A DNA stretch of 57,287 bases from Gammaproteobacteria bacterium (GTDB lineage Bacteria > Pseudomonadota > Gammaproteobacteria > Steroidobacterales > UBA11654). Location of the stretch: contig PBDY01000029.1 of assembly GCA_002717445.1 (NCBI GenBank), positions 1-57,287 on the forward strand, in the 5' to 3' direction. A program made the position numbers and the translations under genes. Every line of letters begins with the position of its first letter. Position 1 is the stretch's first letter. The notes under the pieces were generated by a model. It saw only the letters and a list, made by a program, of their open reading frames with translations, searched no databases and was not told the origin of the DNA. Below are positions 6,894 to 44,227 of the stretch, in pieces.

Positions 6894-7888
6894 CAGTAAC
6901 TTGATTCAACGATGGCCTCAGCAATTTGAATTGAATTCAGTGCTGCACCTTTTCGGATATTATCTGCAACAACCCATAAATTGATTCCATTTGAGTGATT
7001 CAAGTCCGCTCGAATCCTCCCAACATAAACGTCATCAGTGCCATCACCCTCCTTGATTGGCATAGGGTATGACTGATCATCGTTCATTAACTGAATGCCC
7101 GGGGAATCAGAAAGCAATGCCCTGACTTCTCCGATACTGAGATGACTTTCTGTAACAATACCGATTGCTTCAGAGTGGCCATATCTTACTGGAACCCTCA
7201 CCGCTGTTGGGTTTACTTCAATATTTTTATCTTCAAAAATCTTATGTGTCTCCCAAACCATTTTCATTTCCTCAAGTGAGTAACCATTGCTTTCGAAAGA
7301 ACCAATCTGAGGTGTAACATTGTGTGCAAAGTGGTTCTCTTCCTGCTGAGGGTATTTTTGATCTAAGACTTGTCGGTCGTATTCATTGAGCATCGATCGT
7401 CCAGCTCCAGATATCGATTGATAAGTAGATACATGGATCGACTTAATTTTTGCTGATTCATGAATGGGATTGAGCGCCACTAACATCTGGATGGTCGAAC
7501 AGTTTGGGTTGGCAATAATATTGTTTTTTCTAAAATCCTTTAATGCATGGGCATTCACTTCAGGTATGACTAGTGGGATCTGATCGTCGTATCTAAATTC
7601 AGAGGTATTATCAATGACCACAGAGCCAGCATTTGCGGCCTTTGGTGCATAATTCCTCGAAACAGAAGCGCCCGCAGAAAAGAATGAATAATCAATGTTT
7701 TCAAAATTAAAATCATCCAAAGTCTGTATTTCATGATCTTGACCATTGAACCGAATATTCTGCCCAGCAGATCTCTCACTTGCCAGTGGAATGAGTTTTT
7801 CGATTGGAAAGGATCTCTCTTCAAGAATTCTTAAGAGTGCTTGACCAACCAGTCCTGTTGCACCAACAATTGCTACTCGATTTGACAC
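6893..7888 (-). CDS. asd: Aspartate-semialdehyde dehydrogenase
   Basis: 331 residues. Reduces 4-aspartyl phosphate to aspartate semialdehyde with NADPH, the branch point to lysine/diaminopimelate, threonine and methionine. The Rossmann motif VGATGLVGQ is at 8-16, the acyl-thioester Cys is C130 in NPNCST, and RVPVRYGHSE carries the catalytic His. The shorter length and these motifs fit the Asd type found in Pseudomonas and Legionella rather than the longer E. coli form. It starts 3 bases after the aroC stop and overlaps truA by one base. A non-catalytic USG-1 homolog often occupies this position, but the intact Cys argues for the active enzyme. Confidence 0.94.
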   Translation of the reverse strand: MSNRVAIVGATGLVGQALLRILEERSFPIEKLIPLASERSAGQNIRFNGQDHEIQTLDDFNFENIDYSFFSAGASVSRNYAPKAANAGSVVIDNTSEFRYDDQIPLVIPEVNAHALKDFRKNNIIANPNCSTIQMLVALNPIHESAKIKSIHVSTYQSISGAGRSMLNEYDRQVLDQKYPQQEENHFAHNVTPQIGSFESNGYSLEEMKMVWETHKIFEDKNIEVNPTAVRVPVRYGHSEAIGIVTESHLSIGEVRALLSDSPGIQLMNDDQSYPMPIKEGDGTDDVYVGRIRADLNHSNGINLWVVADNIRKGAALNSIQIAEAIVESSY

Positions 7889-7891
7889 AAT

Positions 7892-8977
7892 TTAATTGCC
7901 TTTGTTTTGGATTGAGACATCTGAGTTTTGAGCACGATTTCTCAAGAAGTGATCCATAAGGACAATAGCTAACATTGCTTCTCCAATTGGAGTTGCTCTC
8001 AAACCCACGCATGGGTCATGTCGCCCTTTTGTTACAATTTCTGTTTTTTCGCCCGTTTTATCAATCGTCTCAGCTGGTTTAATAATGCTGGATGTTGGCT
8101 TTAAAGCAATGCTTGCAAAAATATCTTGTCCGCTTGAAATACCTCCTAGGGTTCCGCCTGAATTATTCTGCTTAAAGCCATCGGTATCGATCTCATCTCG
8201 ATGCACGCTTCCTTTCTGATTCACAACAGAAAACCCTGCACCAATTTCAACGCCTTTCACAGCATTGATGCTCATCAAGCCATGTGCAATATCTGCTTCA
8301 AGTTTATCAAAGACAGGTTCTCCCAATCCAACCGGGACATTTTTTGCCACGAGATTGATTCTGGCGCCGATGGAATCGCCCTCTTTTCTCAATTGATCCA
8401 TATATGATTCAAGTTCAGAGATTTTCTCTGGATCCCCACAAAAAAATGGGTTTGTTTCAATAAATTCTCTGTCTTTCATTTCAAGATGAATGGGTCCTAA
8501 TTGTCCCAAAAAACCAAAAATCTCTATCCCTGTTTTTTCCAATAAATATTTTCTGGCAATTGCACCCGCAGCAACTCTCATGACGGTCTCCCGTGCAGAA
8601 GATCTCCCTCCTCCTCTGTAATCTCTGATGCCGTATTTGTGAAAATAGGTATAGTCAGCATGTCCCGGCCTGAATTTATCTTTGATGGCACTATAGTCTT
8701 TTGACTTATGATCCACATTCTGAACGACGAGATTTATTGGTGTGCCTGTGGTCACTCCCTCAAATACACCCGACATGATAGCCACTTCATCCGTTTCTTT
8801 TCTTTGAGATGTAAATCTGGATTGCCCAGGTCTCCTCTTATTCAACTCTTTCTGTATGTCTGCTTCGTTGATTTCAAGTCCTGGTGGGCACCCATCAACA
8901 ATAGCAGATAGTCCAAGGCCATGACTCTCCCCGGATGTTGTGACAGTAAATAATTTTCCTATTGTATTGCCAGCCAT
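7892..8977 (-). CDS. aroC: Chorismate synthase AroC
   Basis: 361 residues. Final step of the shikimate pathway: 5-enolpyruvylshikimate-3-phosphate to chorismate, using reduced FMN. Signatures include GESHG at 16-20, [11 protein letters not shown] near 49-59, [11 protein letters not shown] near 120-131 and GISSGQDI near 290. The full-length protein matches the bacterial family length (350-370). It lies 27 bases downstream of prmB and 3 bases upstream of asd on the minus strand, giving the aroC-asd-truA run seen in several gammaproteobacteria. Confidence 0.97.
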
Positions 8978-9004
8978 TATCGATCTCTTTATCTGGTTCT
9001 CATT

Positions 9005-9904
9005 TTAATCAGTTTTTTTGAGGTGTGAGGCTTCTATTAGAGCAACACCCTCGCCCCCTTTTTCAAAATCAATCCAAACAAAAGGCATGTTGAATTCTTT
9101 TTCCATATTTTCAGAGGCAACCCCTGCCTCAATTATCACTATACCGTTATCGGACAAAAAAGGAGGTGCATCATGCAATATCCTGTAAATAAAATCCAGT
9201 CCATTATCCCCCGCAGCCAATGCTAAAGAAGGTTCATGAAGATATTCATTGGGCAAGTCAGACATGATTTTGCTAGGGACATAGGGCGGGTTTGTGATGA
9301 TCAAATCAAACACACCATTAACATTTTCAAATAAATCAGACTCTATGATTTCAACCCGATTGCCTAAGCCAAGAGCTTTGGTATTCCTTAAAGCGACATC
9401 AATAGCATCTGATGAAACATCGGTCGCAACAACTTCGATATGAGACAAAGCTTCTGCAATACTCAAAGCGATACAGCCGGATCCGGTGCCAATCTCAAGA
9501 ATACGTTTTAATGAGTTCGAATTCAGCCATGGCTCAAAACGATTATTTATCAGTTCAGCGATCGGCGATCGAGGAATGAGCACACGTTCGTCAACATAAA
9601 ATTTCTTTCCACAAAAATAAGCCTCATGAGTGATATACGGCAAAGGTTTTGATTCGACAATCCGTTGGTAAAGAATCTCTTTTGCTTTTTCAAGAAGGTC
9701 CTCATGGGTAGCAGTTTTAAGTTCCCCCTCTTGTAAAGTATCTGCCGATTCTGAGAGAAACATGATAATTGCCATAGATTCATCCATGGCATTTCCAGTC
9801 CCGTGACCAAAAAAGAGATCCTCGTTGCTGAGTATGCTTTCTAGATCATGTAAAAGTTCCTCGTAAGTCGAGCATCTATTAATCAATTCAAATCTGGTGT
9901 CCAT
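9005..9904 (-). CDS. prmB: Ribosomal protein L3 glutamine methyltransferase PrmB
   Basis: 299 residues. A SAM-dependent N5-glutamine methyltransferase of the HemK family. The SAM-binding loop ILEIGTGSGCIA is near 139-150 and the catalytic NPPYVP motif near 210, which recognises the Gln side chain. PrmB (YfcB) modifies ribosomal protein L3 on a glutamine. The alternative is PrmC, which methylates release factors. The placement immediately upstream of aroC matches PrmB in E. coli, and the N-terminal region with its short helical lead also fits PrmB. The gene is divergent from psd, with 53 bases between starts. Confidence 0.9.
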   Translation of the reverse strand: MDTRFELINRCSTYEELLHDLESILSNEDLFFGHGTGNAMDESMAIIMFLSESADTLQEGELKTATHEDLLEKAKEILYQRIVESKPLPYITHEAYFCGKKFYVDERVLIPRSPIAELINNRFEPWLNSNSLKRILEIGTGSGCIALSIAEALSHIEVVATDVSSDAIDVALRNTKALGLGNRVEIIESDLFENVNGVFDLIITNPPYVPSKIMSDLPNEYLHEPSLALAAGDNGLDFIYRILHDAPPFLSDNGIVIIEAGVASENMEKEFNMPFVWIDFEKGGEGVALIEASHLKKTD

Positions 9905-35835: not shown

Positions 35836-36408
35836 CTACTGAATGGGCTCTGTAACCTCTAGAGGAACCATTACGTGGACAAACTCAGTGTCTTCCCACA
35901 TTACGTATGGTCCGCCAGCATATGGATCCGTTGGCAAATCCTTGAGAAGATCTTGTGGCAATAAAAGCATCAAATGAGGTCCTTCTGCAACCCAGACTCC
36001 TTCACTGGTGTCTGTATTGAATGGCACGTTATTATCAACGGGAATATCTCCTACAAGCATATATGACATGCCGAAAGTGGCTTGATTAGGATCGTATTCA
36101 TAAGACTGGCCCATGGCTCCTTTCATATACTCTTGAAGCCATTTCTGCCATGCAGGATCCACACACATTGGATTTACATTTTCATTCGGAGGAGTGCCTG
36201 GCATGCATACCCAACCATTTGATCCTTCTCTTAAGAGTGCGCCATCGTGAGAAATGATTGTGGCATCGCCGCTAACATTCTCTGGCCCTGCAGACATAGC
36301 TATTTTTATGATTTGTTCCTTGTTGTATCGTTCATTCTCTCCTTCATGAGAATAGACACTCATTGATACCACAAAGACAAGCAATGAAACTAATGTTTTA
36401 ATTTTCAT
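35836..36408 (-). CDS. Exported conserved protein of unknown function
   Basis: 190 residues with a signal peptide (about 1-20, ending VYS, followed by HEGEN). The mature part contains REGSNGWVCMPG and PMCVDPAWQKWLQEYM with two cysteines that could form a disulfide. Later pieces are MSYMLVGDIPV, GPHLMLLLP, GGPYVMW and FVHVMVPL. I recall homologs annotated only as hypothetical. The Shine-Dalgarno GGAGA is 10 bases before the ATG. The 120-base gap upstream, beyond which PhzF ends, probably holds the promoter for this gene and the 141-residue unknown. Confidence 0.65.
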   Translation of the reverse strand: MKIKTLVSLLVFVVSMSVYSHEGENERYNKEQIIKIAMSAGPENVSGDATIISHDGALLREGSNGWVCMPGTPPNENVNPMCVDPAWQKWLQEYMKGAMGQSYEYDPNQATFGMSYMLVGDIPVDNNVPFNTDTSEGVWVAEGPHLMLLLPQDLLKDLPTDPYAGGPYVMWEDTEFVHVMVPLEVTEPIQ

Positions 36409-36528: not shown

Positions 36529-37311
36529 CTATATCTCAATTTGACCAGTGAAAAATACGGAGGTGTAACCTCCTATGCTGACTCGATCACCAATAACTTC
36601 ACAGAATAGCTGCCCGCCTCTATCCGAGAGTTGCCTTGCATTGATTTTGGTTGATCCAAACAAGGATGACCAATAAGGAACAATAAGAGTATGGGCAGAT
36701 CCTGTAACAGGATCTTCATCAATACCATATTTTGGATAAAAACATCTCGAAACAATGCCTCCACTTGAATCTCTTGCAGTGATTATCGCACCTCGTGAAT
36801 CAAGTTTTTTAATCTTTTCATAATTTGGATTGATTGCTCTGATTTCTTCCTCGCTGTTAAAAATAAATAGATAATCATCACGGCCCCTATATGATTCTTT
36901 AGACTCAAAACCAAAAAGGTCTTTGGATGGGTTTTGGTCGACTGAGAGGGGGTTGTCCAATGGAAAATCTAGAAAAATTAGGTCGTCTTCTTTCTTTGCC
37001 ATAAGCAGCCCTCTTTTTGATTTGAAGACTATCTTTTCTGTATTTTTAAATTGAGTTAGGTCAAATAAAATCCTCGCAGAAGCAAGTGTCGCATGACCGC
37101 ATAGGTCAACTTCTCTTTTGGGTGAGAACCAACGAATTCCTATCGGGTCTTCTGATAGGTTTAAAAATGCTGTCTCTGATAAGTTATTCTCAAAAGCAAT
37201 GGACAACATCAGTTCATCAGAAAGCCAATCACTCAATAAGCAAACGGCTGCTGGATTCCCTGAAAACAAATCCTTTGTGAATGCGTCAACTTGAAAAACA
37301 TCAATCTTCAT
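36529..37311 (-). CDS. PhzF-family isomerase/epimerase
   Basis: 260 residues from the ATG at 37311; a TTG five codons earlier would overlap the carbonic anhydrase stop. Two diaminopimelate-epimerase-like lobes. The opening DVFQVDAFTKDLFSGNPAAVCLL is the PhzF hallmark, with the catalytic Glu in NLSETAFL; LCGHATLAS and DPVTGSAHTLI close the two halves. PhzF catalyses a [1,5]-hydrogen shift in phenazine synthesis, but most family members act in unknown pathways, and no other phenazine gene is nearby. It is the last gene of a close-packed set with a carbonic anhydrase and a carboxyltransferase, 11 bases after the former. Confidence 0.85.
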   Translation of the reverse strand: MKIDVFQVDAFTKDLFSGNPAAVCLLSDWLSDELMLSIAFENNLSETAFLNLSEDPIGIRWFSPKREVDLCGHATLASARILFDLTQFKNTEKIVFKSKRGLLMAKKEDDLIFLDFPLDNPLSVDQNPSKDLFGFESKESYRGRDDYLFIFNSEEEIRAINPNYEKIKKLDSRGAIITARDSSGGIVSRCFYPKYGIDEDPVTGSAHTLIVPYWSSLFGSTKINARQLSDRGGQLFCEVIGDRVSIGGYTSVFFTGQIEI

Positions 37312-37322
37312 CTGAATGGCAA

Positions 37323-37802
37323 TCAATCAACTGGGTCAATTGTGTTGCCGGTAAGATCGTATATGAACCCTTTAACTTCAACTGTATCAGGTATGAGGGA
37401 ATTCTCTCTTATTGCATTTAAATCATCGATAACACTCTGTTTTAGATCAGAGAAAGTCTGCCATTCAATTTTATTTATTGACTCAGAATTGTCTTCTGTC
37501 TCGAATCGATCATCATTCACCCAATCATGACCATTGAACTCTGCGGTTTGCAGATTCGATTTCAAAGCCTTCAAAATGATTTCATCATTGAGCTTCCCGA
37601 CCATGCAATCAGTATGATGGATAATGAACCATTCTTTTATTCCCATGAATTTATGTGCGATGGTCATTGAGCGAATCGTATCTGCATTCACCCTTCCGCC
37701 TGCATTTCTGATTACATAAGTATGCTCAGGAGGTAAATCAGTGATTGAGATCGGATCGAACCTTGAATCCATGCAAGTTATGATTCCGTATTTTTTTTCC
37801 AT
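37323..37802 (-). CDS. Beta-carbonic anhydrase
   Basis: 159 residues, cytosolic and shorter than plant-type beta enzymes. Zinc ligands are C10 with D12 and R14 (CMDSRF), and H63 with C66 (HHTDC). The residue after C66 is Met rather than the usual Gly. RNAGGR near 32-37 is the conserved active-site loop. It interconverts carbon dioxide and bicarbonate. It is preceded by the acyl-CoA carboxyltransferase with a 4-base gap and followed by PhzF, which suggests it supplies bicarbonate to, or removes it from, a carboxylation reaction. It is close in size to compact mycobacterial-type enzymes. Confidence 0.82.
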   Translation of the reverse strand: MEKKYGIITCMDSRFDPISITDLPPEHTYVIRNAGGRVNADTIRSMTIAHKFMGIKEWFIIHHTDCMVGKLNDEIILKALKSNLQTAEFNGHDWVNDDRFETEDNSESINKIEWQTFSDLKQSVIDDLNAIRENSLIPDTVEVKGFIYDLTGNTIDPVD

Positions 37803-37806
37803 TTCT

Positions 37807-39330
37807 CTAGTCTCTTTTATGATTATTATATGCTCTCAAAATTATTTTTCTTGTATCTGCTGGATCTATCACAGCGTCAATTTCTAGGTGTGCTGCTGCT
37901 TCAATTGCTTTCCCTTTTTCATAGGCCGATGCAACCAGCTGGTCAAAAAGAGCCTCACGTTCTTTTTGATCTTTAACGGCTTCGAGTTCTCTTTTGAATC
38001 CAAGTTGAACAGCACCTTCCAAACCCATTCCACCAAACTCTCCGGTTGGCCATGAAGCGGAATAAATTGGCTCATGAAAACTACCGCCTACCATTGCCAT
38101 GGCTCCCAAGCCATATGCTTTTCTGAGAAATATAGCCATAAGAGGCACTGATAATTGGGATCCAACCTTGAATAATTTACTCATTCTGGTTACTGCGGAC
38201 TCTTCTTCGCTTTCAGGACCAACCATGAATCCTGGCGTATCGACCAGAGCAACAATCGGAATGCCGTGCTCATTGCACAATGTAAGAAATTCAGATGACT
38301 TCTCTGCTGAAACCGCATCAATTGCCCCGCCCAACTGTTGGCAATCACTTGCCAAAAGTGCAAATGGCTTTCCTTCCAGCCTAAAAAATCCAGTGACTAC
38401 GCTTCTTCCATAATTCTTTTTTAGCTCAAGAAAAGATTCTTTGTCGGCAATCACATCTATGATATCTCTAATGGGATAGCCCCATTTCCTATCCTCAGGA
38501 ATCAATTTCCTCAACTGATTTTGATCGGATGCTTCAAATGACTGCTGATTGCCTTGGAAATAGGTCAATAGCTTTTTAGCAATAGTGGTTGCTTCCTTCT
38601 CATCTTTGGCCAGAAGATCGATGGTTCCATTCATTTCGTGCATTTCTGAAGGTCCAATCTCGGTCGGATCAAACTTGCCAAGGCCTCCGCCTTCAATCAT
38701 TGCTGGGCCGGCCATACCAATCCACGATTGTTTGGTTGCTATCCTGAAGTCAGCTGCTCCAAACAATGCCGCATTTCCAGCAAAACAGTATCCATTATTG
38801 ATAGCGATTCTCAACGATGATCCCGTTAAACTTGCCCACTTTGAAAAAGTGGGTACATTCAATCCTGCAATTTGTGTGCTCACATCAACATCGCCCGGTC
38901 TGCCTCCGCCTCCTTCAGTGAAAATCACCACAGGCAAGCGATATTTTTTTGCCTTGTCTATGATTCGATCAAGTTTCTGATGGTGAAAATAGCCCTGCGT
39001 TCCTGCAAGCACTGAGTAATCATAAACAATCGCTACTGCATTAGAATTTTTTTTACCTATCTCATCGGAATTGATCTCACAAAACCCAGTGATCACCCCA
39101 TCAGCCGATGTTTCTTTTTGTAGTGAATCATAGTCTTTTCGAGACCTTTGTGCTGCCACAGCAAAAGCACCGAATTCAATGAAACTATCTTCATCGACCA
39201 AATGATCAAGATTTTCTCTGGCAGTCCTATTTCCCGATTGATGCCTCTTGGATAAAGCCTCTTTTCGATATTGATCTGACAGCGCCTCAATTCTTGATAA
39301 ATAATTTTTGAATTCTTTGTTTTTTGCCAT
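37807..39330 (-). CDS. Stand-alone acyl-CoA carboxyltransferase subunit
   Basis: 507 residues with two crotonase-fold halves. Key pieces: RTARENLDHLVDE near the N-terminus, TEGGGGRPGD (oxyanion hole, N half), MAGPAMIEGGGLG, and VDTPGFMVGPESEE with KAYGLGAMAM (C half). This is the carboxyltransferase of biotin-dependent acyl-CoA carboxylases (propionyl-, methylcrotonyl- or geranyl-CoA type). The IEGGGLG segment and the following text recall enzymes in which biotin carboxylase, carrier and transferase are fused, yet here only the transferase is present and no biotin carboxylase gene is in the window. It is flanked at 7 and 4 bases by the dioxygenase and carbonic anhydrase genes. The acyl substrate is unknown. 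Confidence 0.85.
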   Translation of the reverse strand: MAKNKEFKNYLSRIEALSDQYRKEALSKRHQSGNRTARENLDHLVDEDSFIEFGAFAVAAQRSRKDYDSLQKETSADGVITGFCEINSDEIGKKNSNAVAIVYDYSVLAGTQGYFHHQKLDRIIDKAKKYRLPVVIFTEGGGGRPGDVDVSTQIAGLNVPTFSKWASLTGSSLRIAINNGYCFAGNAALFGAADFRIATKQSWIGMAGPAMIEGGGLGKFDPTEIGPSEMHEMNGTIDLLAKDEKEATTIAKKLLTYFQGNQQSFEASDQNQLRKLIPEDRKWGYPIRDIIDVIADKESFLELKKNYGRSVVTGFFRLEGKPFALLASDCQQLGGAIDAVSAEKSSEFLTLCNEHGIPIVALVDTPGFMVGPESEEESAVTRMSKLFKVGSQLSVPLMAIFLRKAYGLGAMAMVGGSFHEPIYSASWPTGEFGGMGLEGAVQLGFKRELEAVKDQKEREALFDQLVASAYEKGKAIEAAAHLEIDAVIDPADTRKIILRAYNNHKRD

Positions 39331-39337
39331 ATTGTTC

Positions 39338-40153
39338 TTATATTACTTTTTCTCCAGCAACTGCCGCCCTTTGAAGTCTCCTCGTCTGTGGGTAATAGTC
39401 CGCTACAGCATAATGAGAAGTGCATCGATTGTCCCATACAGCAATCGTTCCTGGCTCCCAATTGAGTCTTACACAAAACTCAGGTTTTTCAATCACACCA
39501 TAAAGAAAGCTTAATAATGACCGACTTTCATCCTCCTCCAAACCGTCAACCGATTCAGTAAAAAACTTATTCACAAAAAGACATTTCTTGCCTGTTCGAG
39601 GATGCGTTCTTACGAGTGGGTGAGAGACTGGTGGGAAATCTTTCTGAAATTCTAATTTCTTTTCCTGCCCATGCTCCCATTTAGAAAAGATCGGTTCATA
39701 ATAATAGAGCAAGCTGTGACGACAACTCAAAGAATCAAGGAATTCTTTCATCGATGATGACAATGACTCATAAGCGGTTTCATTGCAAGACCAAATGGTG
39801 TCTCCTCCTCTGTCTGGAATGATTACACCCTCTAAAAAGAACAGCGCGGGTGGCTCCTCTAGGCCTGTCATATCTTGATGAAATGTATTCAGATAAGGGG
39901 GTTTTTCGCTGTTTGTTTCAATGACTAAAAGATCTTGGTATTTGTCCGATAATGCTGGTTGAACAAAGGGAGGTCCAAACAATTGTGCAAGGTTTGTTAA
40001 TTCATTGCCGTCAAGATTCTGTTCATGAAAAAAAAGAACCTTATATTCATCAATGGCATCTTGAATGATTTTGACAGACTTCTTATTGGACATTGACTTA
40101 AGGTCAATATCGCTTATTTCAGCGCCCAAGACATTTAATGGCTTGATATTCAT
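39338..40153 (-). CDS. TauD/TfdA-family Fe(II)/2-oxoglutarate dioxygenase
   Basis: 271 residues. The Fe(II) facial triad is visible as H92 and D94 (FHQDMT) and H247 (TSHYAVAD); R258/R259/R262 (TRRLQRAAV) supply the 2-oxoglutarate carboxylate contact. FFHEQNL near 41-47 and DNRCTSHYA near 241-249 are family marks. Relatives hydroxylate taurine, alkylsulfates, 2,4-D and other small acids; substrate cannot be inferred. It lies 7 bases upstream of the carboxyltransferase, and 48 bases downstream of the YwaF-like gene. An alkyl-sulfatase-like gene is in the wider neighbourhood, so sulfonated or sulfated lipids are one hypothesis. Confidence 0.88.
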   Translation of the reverse strand: MNIKPLNVLGAEISDIDLKSMSNKKSVKIIQDAIDEYKVLFFHEQNLDGNELTNLAQLFGPPFVQPALSDKYQDLLVIETNSEKPPYLNTFHQDMTGLEEPPALFFLEGVIIPDRGGDTIWSCNETAYESLSSSMKEFLDSLSCRHSLLYYYEPIFSKWEHGQEKKLEFQKDFPPVSHPLVRTHPRTGKKCLFVNKFFTESVDGLEEDESRSLLSFLYGVIEKPEFCVRLNWEPGTIAVWDNRCTSHYAVADYYPQTRRLQRAAVAGEKVI

Positions 40154-40201
40154 GGCTCCTCTTCAGGTTTTGGAATATTATCCCGATCAAGATCTTAAGA
40201 A

Positions 40202-40900
40202 TCAATCTTTTGAAACCATATCCTTTATCCAAAACGGAAAATAAAGCAGATAAAAAAATGCTATAGCTATTGGAATCACCGCAGTCATATGGAATGGAGG
40301 ATCAGGAAAATAGTTCATCACAGAATCGGCATCTGGCTTGTCCATTAAGTACCAAAAATTTGCTCCCTCACCAAGCAAAAGATTAATAACATAGATCATT
40401 GACATGGCTATAATGCTAATTCCAATGACCTTGTGCACATCCCTGAATAAAGGCCGCTCACCAAGTGCAATGATTGCATAAAATACAGCGAGCAAGATCA
40501 ATGTATGAGCCCAGAAAAAAGGGAAGAAGACTCCGTTGGGAAATGCAAAATCAACATCTGGCGTCAGAAGTGCCATGGTTGCACCTCCCAGCCCCCAAAA
40601 ATATGCACAATTAAAAAATATCTTCTCTCTTGAAATAAAATAATACGCAATTGAAAGCGCAGATAGATCACACATATGGAATGGAAAAGCCTCCTGCCAC
40701 GCATGATTAAATGTAAAGGTATTCAATACCTGCTCAAATGTATGCGCTAAAAGCAATGCTGACAAACAAACGCCCATTATTTTCTTCGTTTCTGATGATT
40801 TATTTCTAAAATAAAGGGGCAAGAAGACAATCAATGTAACGCATACAAGCAAAGTGAAAACATGTTGTGTTCCAAAGAGTTGAAATGGCTCTTGATGCAT
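40202..40900 (-). CDS. YwaF/TMEM164-like membrane protein (copy 1)
   Basis: 232 residues, about seven membrane segments. It belongs to the YwaF (TIGR02206) group. The conserved polar motif FHMCDLSAL at 74-82 (His75, Cys77, Asp78), LLGEGANFWYL and DPPFH near the C-terminus are shared with copy 2 at 43512-44204. Vertebrate TMEM164, a distant relative, is reported to be a Cys-dependent acyltransferase for ether phospholipids, so a membrane lipid acyl transfer is one hypothesis for the bacterial proteins. It is the first gene of a minus-strand set with dioxygenase, carboxyltransferase, carbonic anhydrase and PhzF. The ATG has GGGGAG 11 bases upstream. Confidence 0.8.
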   Translation of the reverse strand: MHQEPFQLFGTQHVFTLLVCVTLIVFLPLYFRNKSSETKKIMGVCLSALLLAHTFEQVLNTFTFNHAWQEAFPFHMCDLSALSIAYYFISREKIFFNCAYFWGLGGATMALLTPDVDFAFPNGVFFPFFWAHTLILLAVFYAIIALGERPLFRDVHKVIGISIIAMSMIYVINLLLGEGANFWYLMDKPDADSVMNYFPDPPFHMTAVIPIAIAFFYLLYFPFWIKDMVSKD

Positions 40901-43511: not shown

Positions 43512-44204
43512 TCAAGCACCCGAAATCTTATCTCTCAACTGATATGGCAGATACGTCAGATAAAAAGCAAAAATGGCTGCCGGAATCAATCCCAGCACAT
43601 GAAATGGTGCCGATGGGAAGAAATTAATTATTGTATCGCCATTTGGTTTGTCTTTTAGATACCAAAAATTAGCACCTTCTCCCAACAAGTGATTTATAAC
43701 AAAGATTATTGCAGTCATTGTCAATGTGATCTTAACCACAGAGATGAAGTCCTCAAATTGAGGCCTTTCTTTCAGAATAAAAACAGGCATTCCAACGCCC
43801 AACAGAATCAATCCGTGTCCGTAGTAGAAGTTAATGAATTCTGGATGCGGGTATCCGAAAGTCAACGCGGGAGTTAGCAGCGCCATGCTGGCAGGAATAA
43901 CCCCCCAAAAAAAAGCGCAGTGAAAGAATCTCTTATCATAGCCCAATAGATAAAGACCTATTGCAAGCTTTGAGAAATCACACATATGAAGTGGGATGAT
44001 CTCCTGCCACGATAAATCGAAACTAATGGCATGAAAGAACTGCATAAAATAGTGTGTGATCAATAAAACCCCAATGGAAACTTCTGTATTTTTTTTGATT
44101 TCCTTGGATTGGTGGCTGACCCAAAATAAGATCAAGGCAATAATGATATAAGTAAGGATGATGCTGGTTATGTGTGAGAAACCAAATAATGTGAATGTTT
44201 GCAT
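43512..44204 (-). CDS. YwaF/TMEM164-like membrane protein (copy 2)
   Basis: 230 residues from the ATG at 44204, which has GGGAG 4 bases upstream and whose N-terminus (MQTFTLFG) aligns with that of copy 1 (MHQEPFQLFG); an ATG five codons earlier also exists. Seven or so membrane segments. The motif LHMCDFSKL (His73, Cys75, Asp76), LLGEGANFWYL, DKPNGD and APFH repeat those of copy 1, so the two are clear paralogs about 2.6 kb apart. Possible lipid acyltransfer, by distant likeness to TMEM164; not established in bacteria. Upstream is the pepE-like gene, 23 bases away. Confidence 0.8.
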   Translation of the reverse strand: MQTFTLFGFSHITSIILTYIIIALILFWVSHQSKEIKKNTEVSIGVLLITHYFMQFFHAISFDLSWQEIIPLHMCDFSKLAIGLYLLGYDKRFFHCAFFWGVIPASMALLTPALTFGYPHPEFINFYYGHGLILLGVGMPVFILKERPQFEDFISVVKITLTMTAIIFVINHLLGEGANFWYLKDKPNGDTIINFFPSAPFHVLGLIPAAIFAFYLTYLPYQLRDKISGA

Positions 44205-44227
44205 TTTGCTCCCTGTCATACTGATGC

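Follow-up and report, generated by a model that had tools for sequence, protein, structure and literature searches.

Genes of the locus

The window, by which we mean the whole stretch of 57,287 nucleotides analyzed here, belongs to a MAG (G000) of 1.5 Mb that is 84% complete. We placed it as SAR86-type by similarity, its closest named records being mostly SAR86 cluster bacteria. On the minus strand, a run of five genes codes for a TMEM164/YwaF-type (TIGR02206) integral membrane acyltransferase-like protein (40202-40900), a TauD-type Fe(II)/2OG dioxygenase (39338-40153), a stand-alone LCC-type carboxyltransferase (CT) of 507 aa (37807-39330), a beta-class carbonic anhydrase (CA) of 159 aa (37323-37802) and a PhzF-family isomerase-like protein (36529-37311 when counted from its ATG; an alternative TTG start is possible at 37326). 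The ORF list and the Pfam/NCBIfam searches bore out the five ORFs, their family calls and the intergenic gaps of 48, 7, 4 and 11 bases that a preliminary description had given. The first two proteins were assigned by Pfam/NCBIfam matches. The CT was assigned by Pfam Carboxyl_trans, by its PDB matches 4rcn and 5fif and by its active-site motifs, the CA by Pfam Pro_CA and its type II beta-CA relatives in the PDB, and PhzF by Pfam/NCBIfam PhzC-PhzF, with 1s7j as the nearest PDB entry. A further minus-strand gene at 35836-36408 codes for a secreted-type protein of unassigned family, which gave no Pfam or NCBIfam match; its position after PhzF is conserved in the genus, with one extra 239-aa gene in between in G002 and G005. 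The same-strand gene series extends past a 120-base gap, downstream to 33165.

Tight spacing is the norm in the window. Same-strand gaps measure 60 bases or less in 35 of the 47 neighbour pairs (median, 20 bases), and same-strand runs of five, six and seven genes also occur. Therefore, spacing by itself says little for a shared pathway. Scanning for promoters and terminators gave no signal clearly above shuffled sequence. A defence function of the locus was ruled out, as PADLOC returned no defence-system match.

The dioxygenase retains the iron-ligand pattern HxD...H of Fe(II)/2OG enzymes, its HQD and a distal His aligning with the HTD and distal His of E. coli TauD. It scored 233 bits against the NCBIfam TauD equivalog cut-off of 313, and it carries Gln, Leu and Leu at the positions of His70, Tyr73 and Asn95 of E. 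coli TauD, which we take to be the taurine-contact residues. The cut-off and the contact residues together speak against an identity as taurine dioxygenase, and the enzyme is probably a TauD-type protein for a non-taurine substrate. Doubt had already been cast on tauD of SAR86 (PMC11582366), and the failed taurine tests here agree with it. As for the membrane protein, both TMEM164 and the related LhaT act as acyltransferases (PMC12345273). A second TMEM164-family gene lies about 3 kb off, at window positions 43512-44219; it is 43% identical to the copy at 40202-40900 and is kept in most of the genus.

The carboxyltransferase and its candidate biotin carboxylases

The best PDB matches of the CT were 4rcn, a single-chain long-chain acyl-CoA carboxylase (LCC; E-value of 4e-161), and 5fif (1e-159), while the next family, PCC-like, followed at 5e-63 or worse. 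These E-values, together with the tree, place the protein in the LCC group of CT domains. Its homology to the CT domain of the single-chain enzyme extends over the whole length, and the oxyanion-hole active-site motifs common to full-length LCC are intact in both half-domains (CFAGNAAL, GGGGRPGD, DTPGFMVGP and RKxYGLGA). This conservation rules out a pseudogene or a lost active site. We also ruled out the beta subunits of propionyl- and methylcrotonyl-CoA carboxylase, since the relatives' genomes encode these in genes of their own, at about 30% identity to the CT. Unlike the single-chain LCC, however, the CT stands alone in an ORF of only 507 aa, which lacks the fused BC-BCCP half. LCC accepts C2-C16 acyl-CoAs and has its lowest Km for palmitoyl-CoA (PMC6491548).

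Relatives of the CT fall into two main architectures. One is a full-length protein of some 1,090 residues, found in Pseudomonas, Cupriavidus, Nocardia and others; the other, of some 505 residues, is a CT on its own, found in SAR86, Halieaceae, Porticoccaceae, Arenicella and Pelagibacteraceae-labelled records. Both forms conserve 127 alignment columns alike. In the tree, read without a root, the gammaproteobacterial and SAR11 stand-alone CTs lie apart from the group with all full-length forms, the exception being G023; the latter group also includes a distinct set of stand-alone CTs from deltaproteobacteria. Such an unrooted tree would be compatible with fission of the long chain as well as with ancestral separateness of the CT. 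Three alphaproteobacterial LCC-type CTs (L114, L134 and L144) are preceded by a stretch resembling the carrier end of LiuD, with no biotin carboxylase (BC) in the same ORF, an architecture that is perhaps intermediate. The full-length LCC L152, titled as a Klebsiella pneumoniae MAG, groups with gammaproteobacterial MAGs and probably comes from a mislabelled bin.

The preliminary description had noted that neither a BC nor a carrier lies beside the CT. This proved correct for the window and holds more widely, since no dedicated one was found in the relatives' genomes either. We searched 32 genomes with PF02785 and then assigned the BC types by similarity. The types found were AccC, PccA and LiuD, and no LCC-like or CT-dedicated BC appeared in any of the SAR86, Halieaceae or SAR11 genomes with an orphan CT that were tested. 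The window's own MAG contains the LiuD type only; the AccC and PccA types are present in sister genomes and are probably absent here because of MAG incompleteness. PccA-type BCs were absent from G023 and G036, and LiuD-type BCs from the two SAR11 genomes searched, leaving AccC as the only BC class common to all these groups. As AccC is universal, its presence across the groups is suggestive only of a role as the CT partner. We know of no orphan LCC-type CT that works with AccC/AccB, and none of the papers searched dealt with orphan carboxyltransferases or with the pairing of CT and CA. A similar arrangement occurs in the stambomycin cluster, where MccB (SamR0483), a solitary CT beta subunit that has no BC gene to go with it, borrows a housekeeping alpha subunit (PMC5187497). 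MccB, however, is an actinomycete PccB-type CT, whereas the CT of the window belongs to the LCC type and has only putative partners. Two possibly incomplete deltaproteobacterial MAGs (L121 and L145, from G071 and G072) carry stand-alone LCC-type CTs and gave zero BC matches.

The carbonic anhydrase slot between CT and PhzF

The CT-PhzF interval is assembled in seven genomes of the genus, five of which hold a CA of either class in it. The slot contains a beta-CA in the window and in G009, a 147-aa iota-class CA homologue in G002, G003 and G005, purT in G007 and no gene in G004. G008 does not represent a true absence of the CT, as its contigs end inside TauD and inside an amidohydrolase and leave the CT region unassembled. 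The window's CA ORF begins 4 nt past the CT stop, and in all of the window, G002, G003 and G005 the start of the CA either overlaps the stop of the CT or lies no more than 4 bases past it, which covers both classes. Among the 13 SAR86-type genomes, the beta-CA was found only in G000 and G009 and the iota-CA only in G001, G002, G003, G005, G059 and G062. The two classes are mutually exclusive, with at most one CA of either kind per SAR86 genome. In G001, G059 and G062 the iota-CA gene has unrelated surroundings, and no CA adjoins the CT outside the genus. In G009 (L045:7260-9996), the CT and PhzF frames are each broken once with the CA intact, which reflects sequencing error or decay.

The window CA is classed as a beta-CA from its sequence, and CO2 hydration is predicted for it. 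Both parts of the zinc site (Cys-Asp-Arg and His-x-x-Cys) are present, as CMDSR and HHTDC in the window and as CMDAR and HHTDC in G009, although similarity between the two proteins is only about 34% and their grouping is weak. The nearest PDB entries of the window protein are type II beta-CAs and also COS and CS2 hydrolases. It resembles the type II enzymes in its zinc-ligand motifs and in an identity of about 40% to gammaproteobacterial members, but it lacks about 25 N-terminal residues, is fast-evolving and is placed after a CT.

For the 147-aa protein, no Pfam match was obtained. Its score against NCBIfam NF047901 (metal-independent CA) was 51 bits for a cut-off of 350, over model positions 85-200 of 205, which by that model makes it a homologue and not an equivalog. 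A profile built from the three 147-aa sequences matched the solved iota-CAs 7c5x (E-value of 7e-57) and 7c5v (7e-13). The Thr of FKPT, the Tyr of SYF and the His and Ser of HHSS, positions whose roles in the COG4337 CA are described in PMC8132391, are kept in all six SAR86 iota sequences. The dN/dS between the G002 and G003 iota-CAs was about 0.17, and structure prediction from a single sequence reached a mean pLDDT of 36. The likeness to the metal-independent COG4337 enzymes concerns the sister genomes; no iota-CA was found in the window genome, where the beta-CA takes the same place.

A proposed carboxylation module and its alternatives

That unrelated beta- and iota-CAs occupy the same position after the CT in different members of the genus supports the connection between CT and CA drawn in the preliminary description. 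Judged from these sequences, the swap suggests that bicarbonate supply may be coupled to the CT reaction, because a position at which one CA class has given way to another, unrelated one points to a need for a CA there. We propose, with confidence approaching but not reaching an even chance, that the core of the locus is a two-gene module in which the CT borrows carboxybiotin in trans and the CA supplies bicarbonate. The CT would be the beta subunit of an LCC-type acyl-CoA carboxylase and would receive its carboxyl group from a carboxybiotin formed in trans; the donor would most likely be AccB charged by AccC, possibly PccA or LiuD. The CT would transfer this group to the alpha carbon of a probably medium- or long-chain acyl-CoA, to give a 2-carboxyacyl-CoA. 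The co-translated CA would hydrate metabolic CO2, providing the biotin carboxylase with bicarbonate and serving the CT reaction rather than the whole cell. COG4337 CAs hydrate CO2 and show no obvious dehydration of bicarbonate (PMC8132391), which fits this direction of supply. TMEM164-TauD and PhzF would be neighbours to which no pathway shared with CT and CA is assigned.

More broadly, the orphan LCC-type CT of marine SAR86, SAR11 and their relatives may borrow housekeeping carboxybiotin and, in one SAR86 genus, may be translationally coupled to the genome's only beta/iota CA, whose class is exchanged in place, the whole forming a bicarbonate-coupled step of acyl-CoA carboxylation. We advance this wider statement tentatively, as somewhat less likely than not to hold. 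Behind an ordinary-looking gene run nevertheless lies a good comparative case, a CT of the LCC type that stands alone and beside which unrelated CAs have been exchanged in place. Two unrelated CAs at one position beside a CT amount to a natural experiment, in which the function was kept and the protein replaced, and the role of bicarbonate supply in carboxylation thereby becomes open to testing in a lineage that is among the commonest of the surface ocean. The locus is also a pointer to an acyl-CoA carboxylation, so far unassigned, in both SAR86 and SAR11, groups whose carbon metabolism has mostly been read from genomes alone. As a speculation, the replacement of a zinc CA by a metal-free one may matter in metal-poor surface water.

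Several observations count against a dedicated module of CT and CA. The slot CA is missing in G004 and G007, no CA accompanies the CT beyond the genus, and the purT of G007 indicates that housekeeping genes can land in the slot. Moreover, the slot CA is the only beta/iota CA found in its genome and so may be a general housekeeping enzyme. The slot CA could then be the cell's only CA, serving all bicarbonate-using enzymes, and the CT-PhzF interval a permissive site of cassette exchange between co-occurring SAR86 populations, an explanation that we find credible though rather doubtful. The ceiling of a single CA of the beta or iota class in each SAR86 genome and the unrelated contexts of the other iota-CAs speak for it, as do the G008 contigs, whose breaks around the region are what a variable locus would produce. 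However, if the position were free, two unrelated CA classes in one slot, each at a distance from the CT that suits translational coupling, would be unlikely.

The preliminary description had joined all five genes in one dedicated catabolic or tailoring pathway for an unusual carboxylated or ring compound. In favor of a single pathway, the full order TMEM164-TauD-CT-CA-PhzF recurs in G002 with the CA class swapped to iota, and 2OG dioxygenases of another family (PhyH) stand directly upstream of orphan LCC-type CTs, or one acyl-CoA ligase away, in two other lineages (L086/L089:5279-9515 and L100/L101 at about 7049-9455). On the other hand, two opposite-strand photolyase-type genes separate TauD from the CT in G003 and G005, and TMEM164-TauD is not beside the CT in G004 (where the CT directly precedes PhzF), in G007 or in G009 (where the order is CT, CA, PhzF). 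G006 and G009 have TMEM164 without a TauD orthologue, the latter being confined to G000, G002, G003, G005 and G008 (87-91% identical in the last four). With the order not kept among relatives, we rejected the single five-gene pathway, which is unlikely; the part of the earlier interpretation that stands is the link of CT, CA and bicarbonate. TMEM164-TauD is a separate clade-specific pair, and PhzF is a genus-level neighbour of the CT, next to it or one gene away in seven genus genomes and adjacent to it only within the genus. The photolyase and photolyase-related gene (DPRP) between TauD and CT lie at L035:5874-8791 and at the matching position of L036 and L076 (G005, G003), and they are missing from the window and from G002.

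Outside the genus, the CT has, in several lineages, enoyl-CoA hydratase, CoA-transferase III, SDR, acyl-CoA ligase and PhyH as neighbours. These gene families point to acyl-CoA metabolism as the likely theme of the CT neighbourhood, and we saw no evidence for a ring or unusual carboxylated compound. Folds related to the CT serve in malonate and glutaconyl-CoA decarboxylases. It is nevertheless very unlikely that the CT runs in reverse or biotin-free, as an acyl-CoA decarboxylase or transcarboxylase with the CA removing the released CO2: weak matches to decarboxylase-related families in the NCBIfam and PDB searches, the two deltaproteobacterial MAGs with orphan CTs and no BC match at all, and a decarboxylase-like gene overlapping the CT in SAR11 would fit this, but the CT keeps the motifs of biotin-dependent LCC, the genomes carry AccC, and no membrane decarboxylase subunit is seen beside the CT. 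The SAR11 gene, which pairs the CT with the fold of a cofactor-free decarboxylase or isomerase, is EutA/arylmalonate-decarboxylase-like, and it overlaps or abuts the 3' side of the orphan CT in eight SAR11-labelled genomes (L078, L079, L081-L085 and L095).
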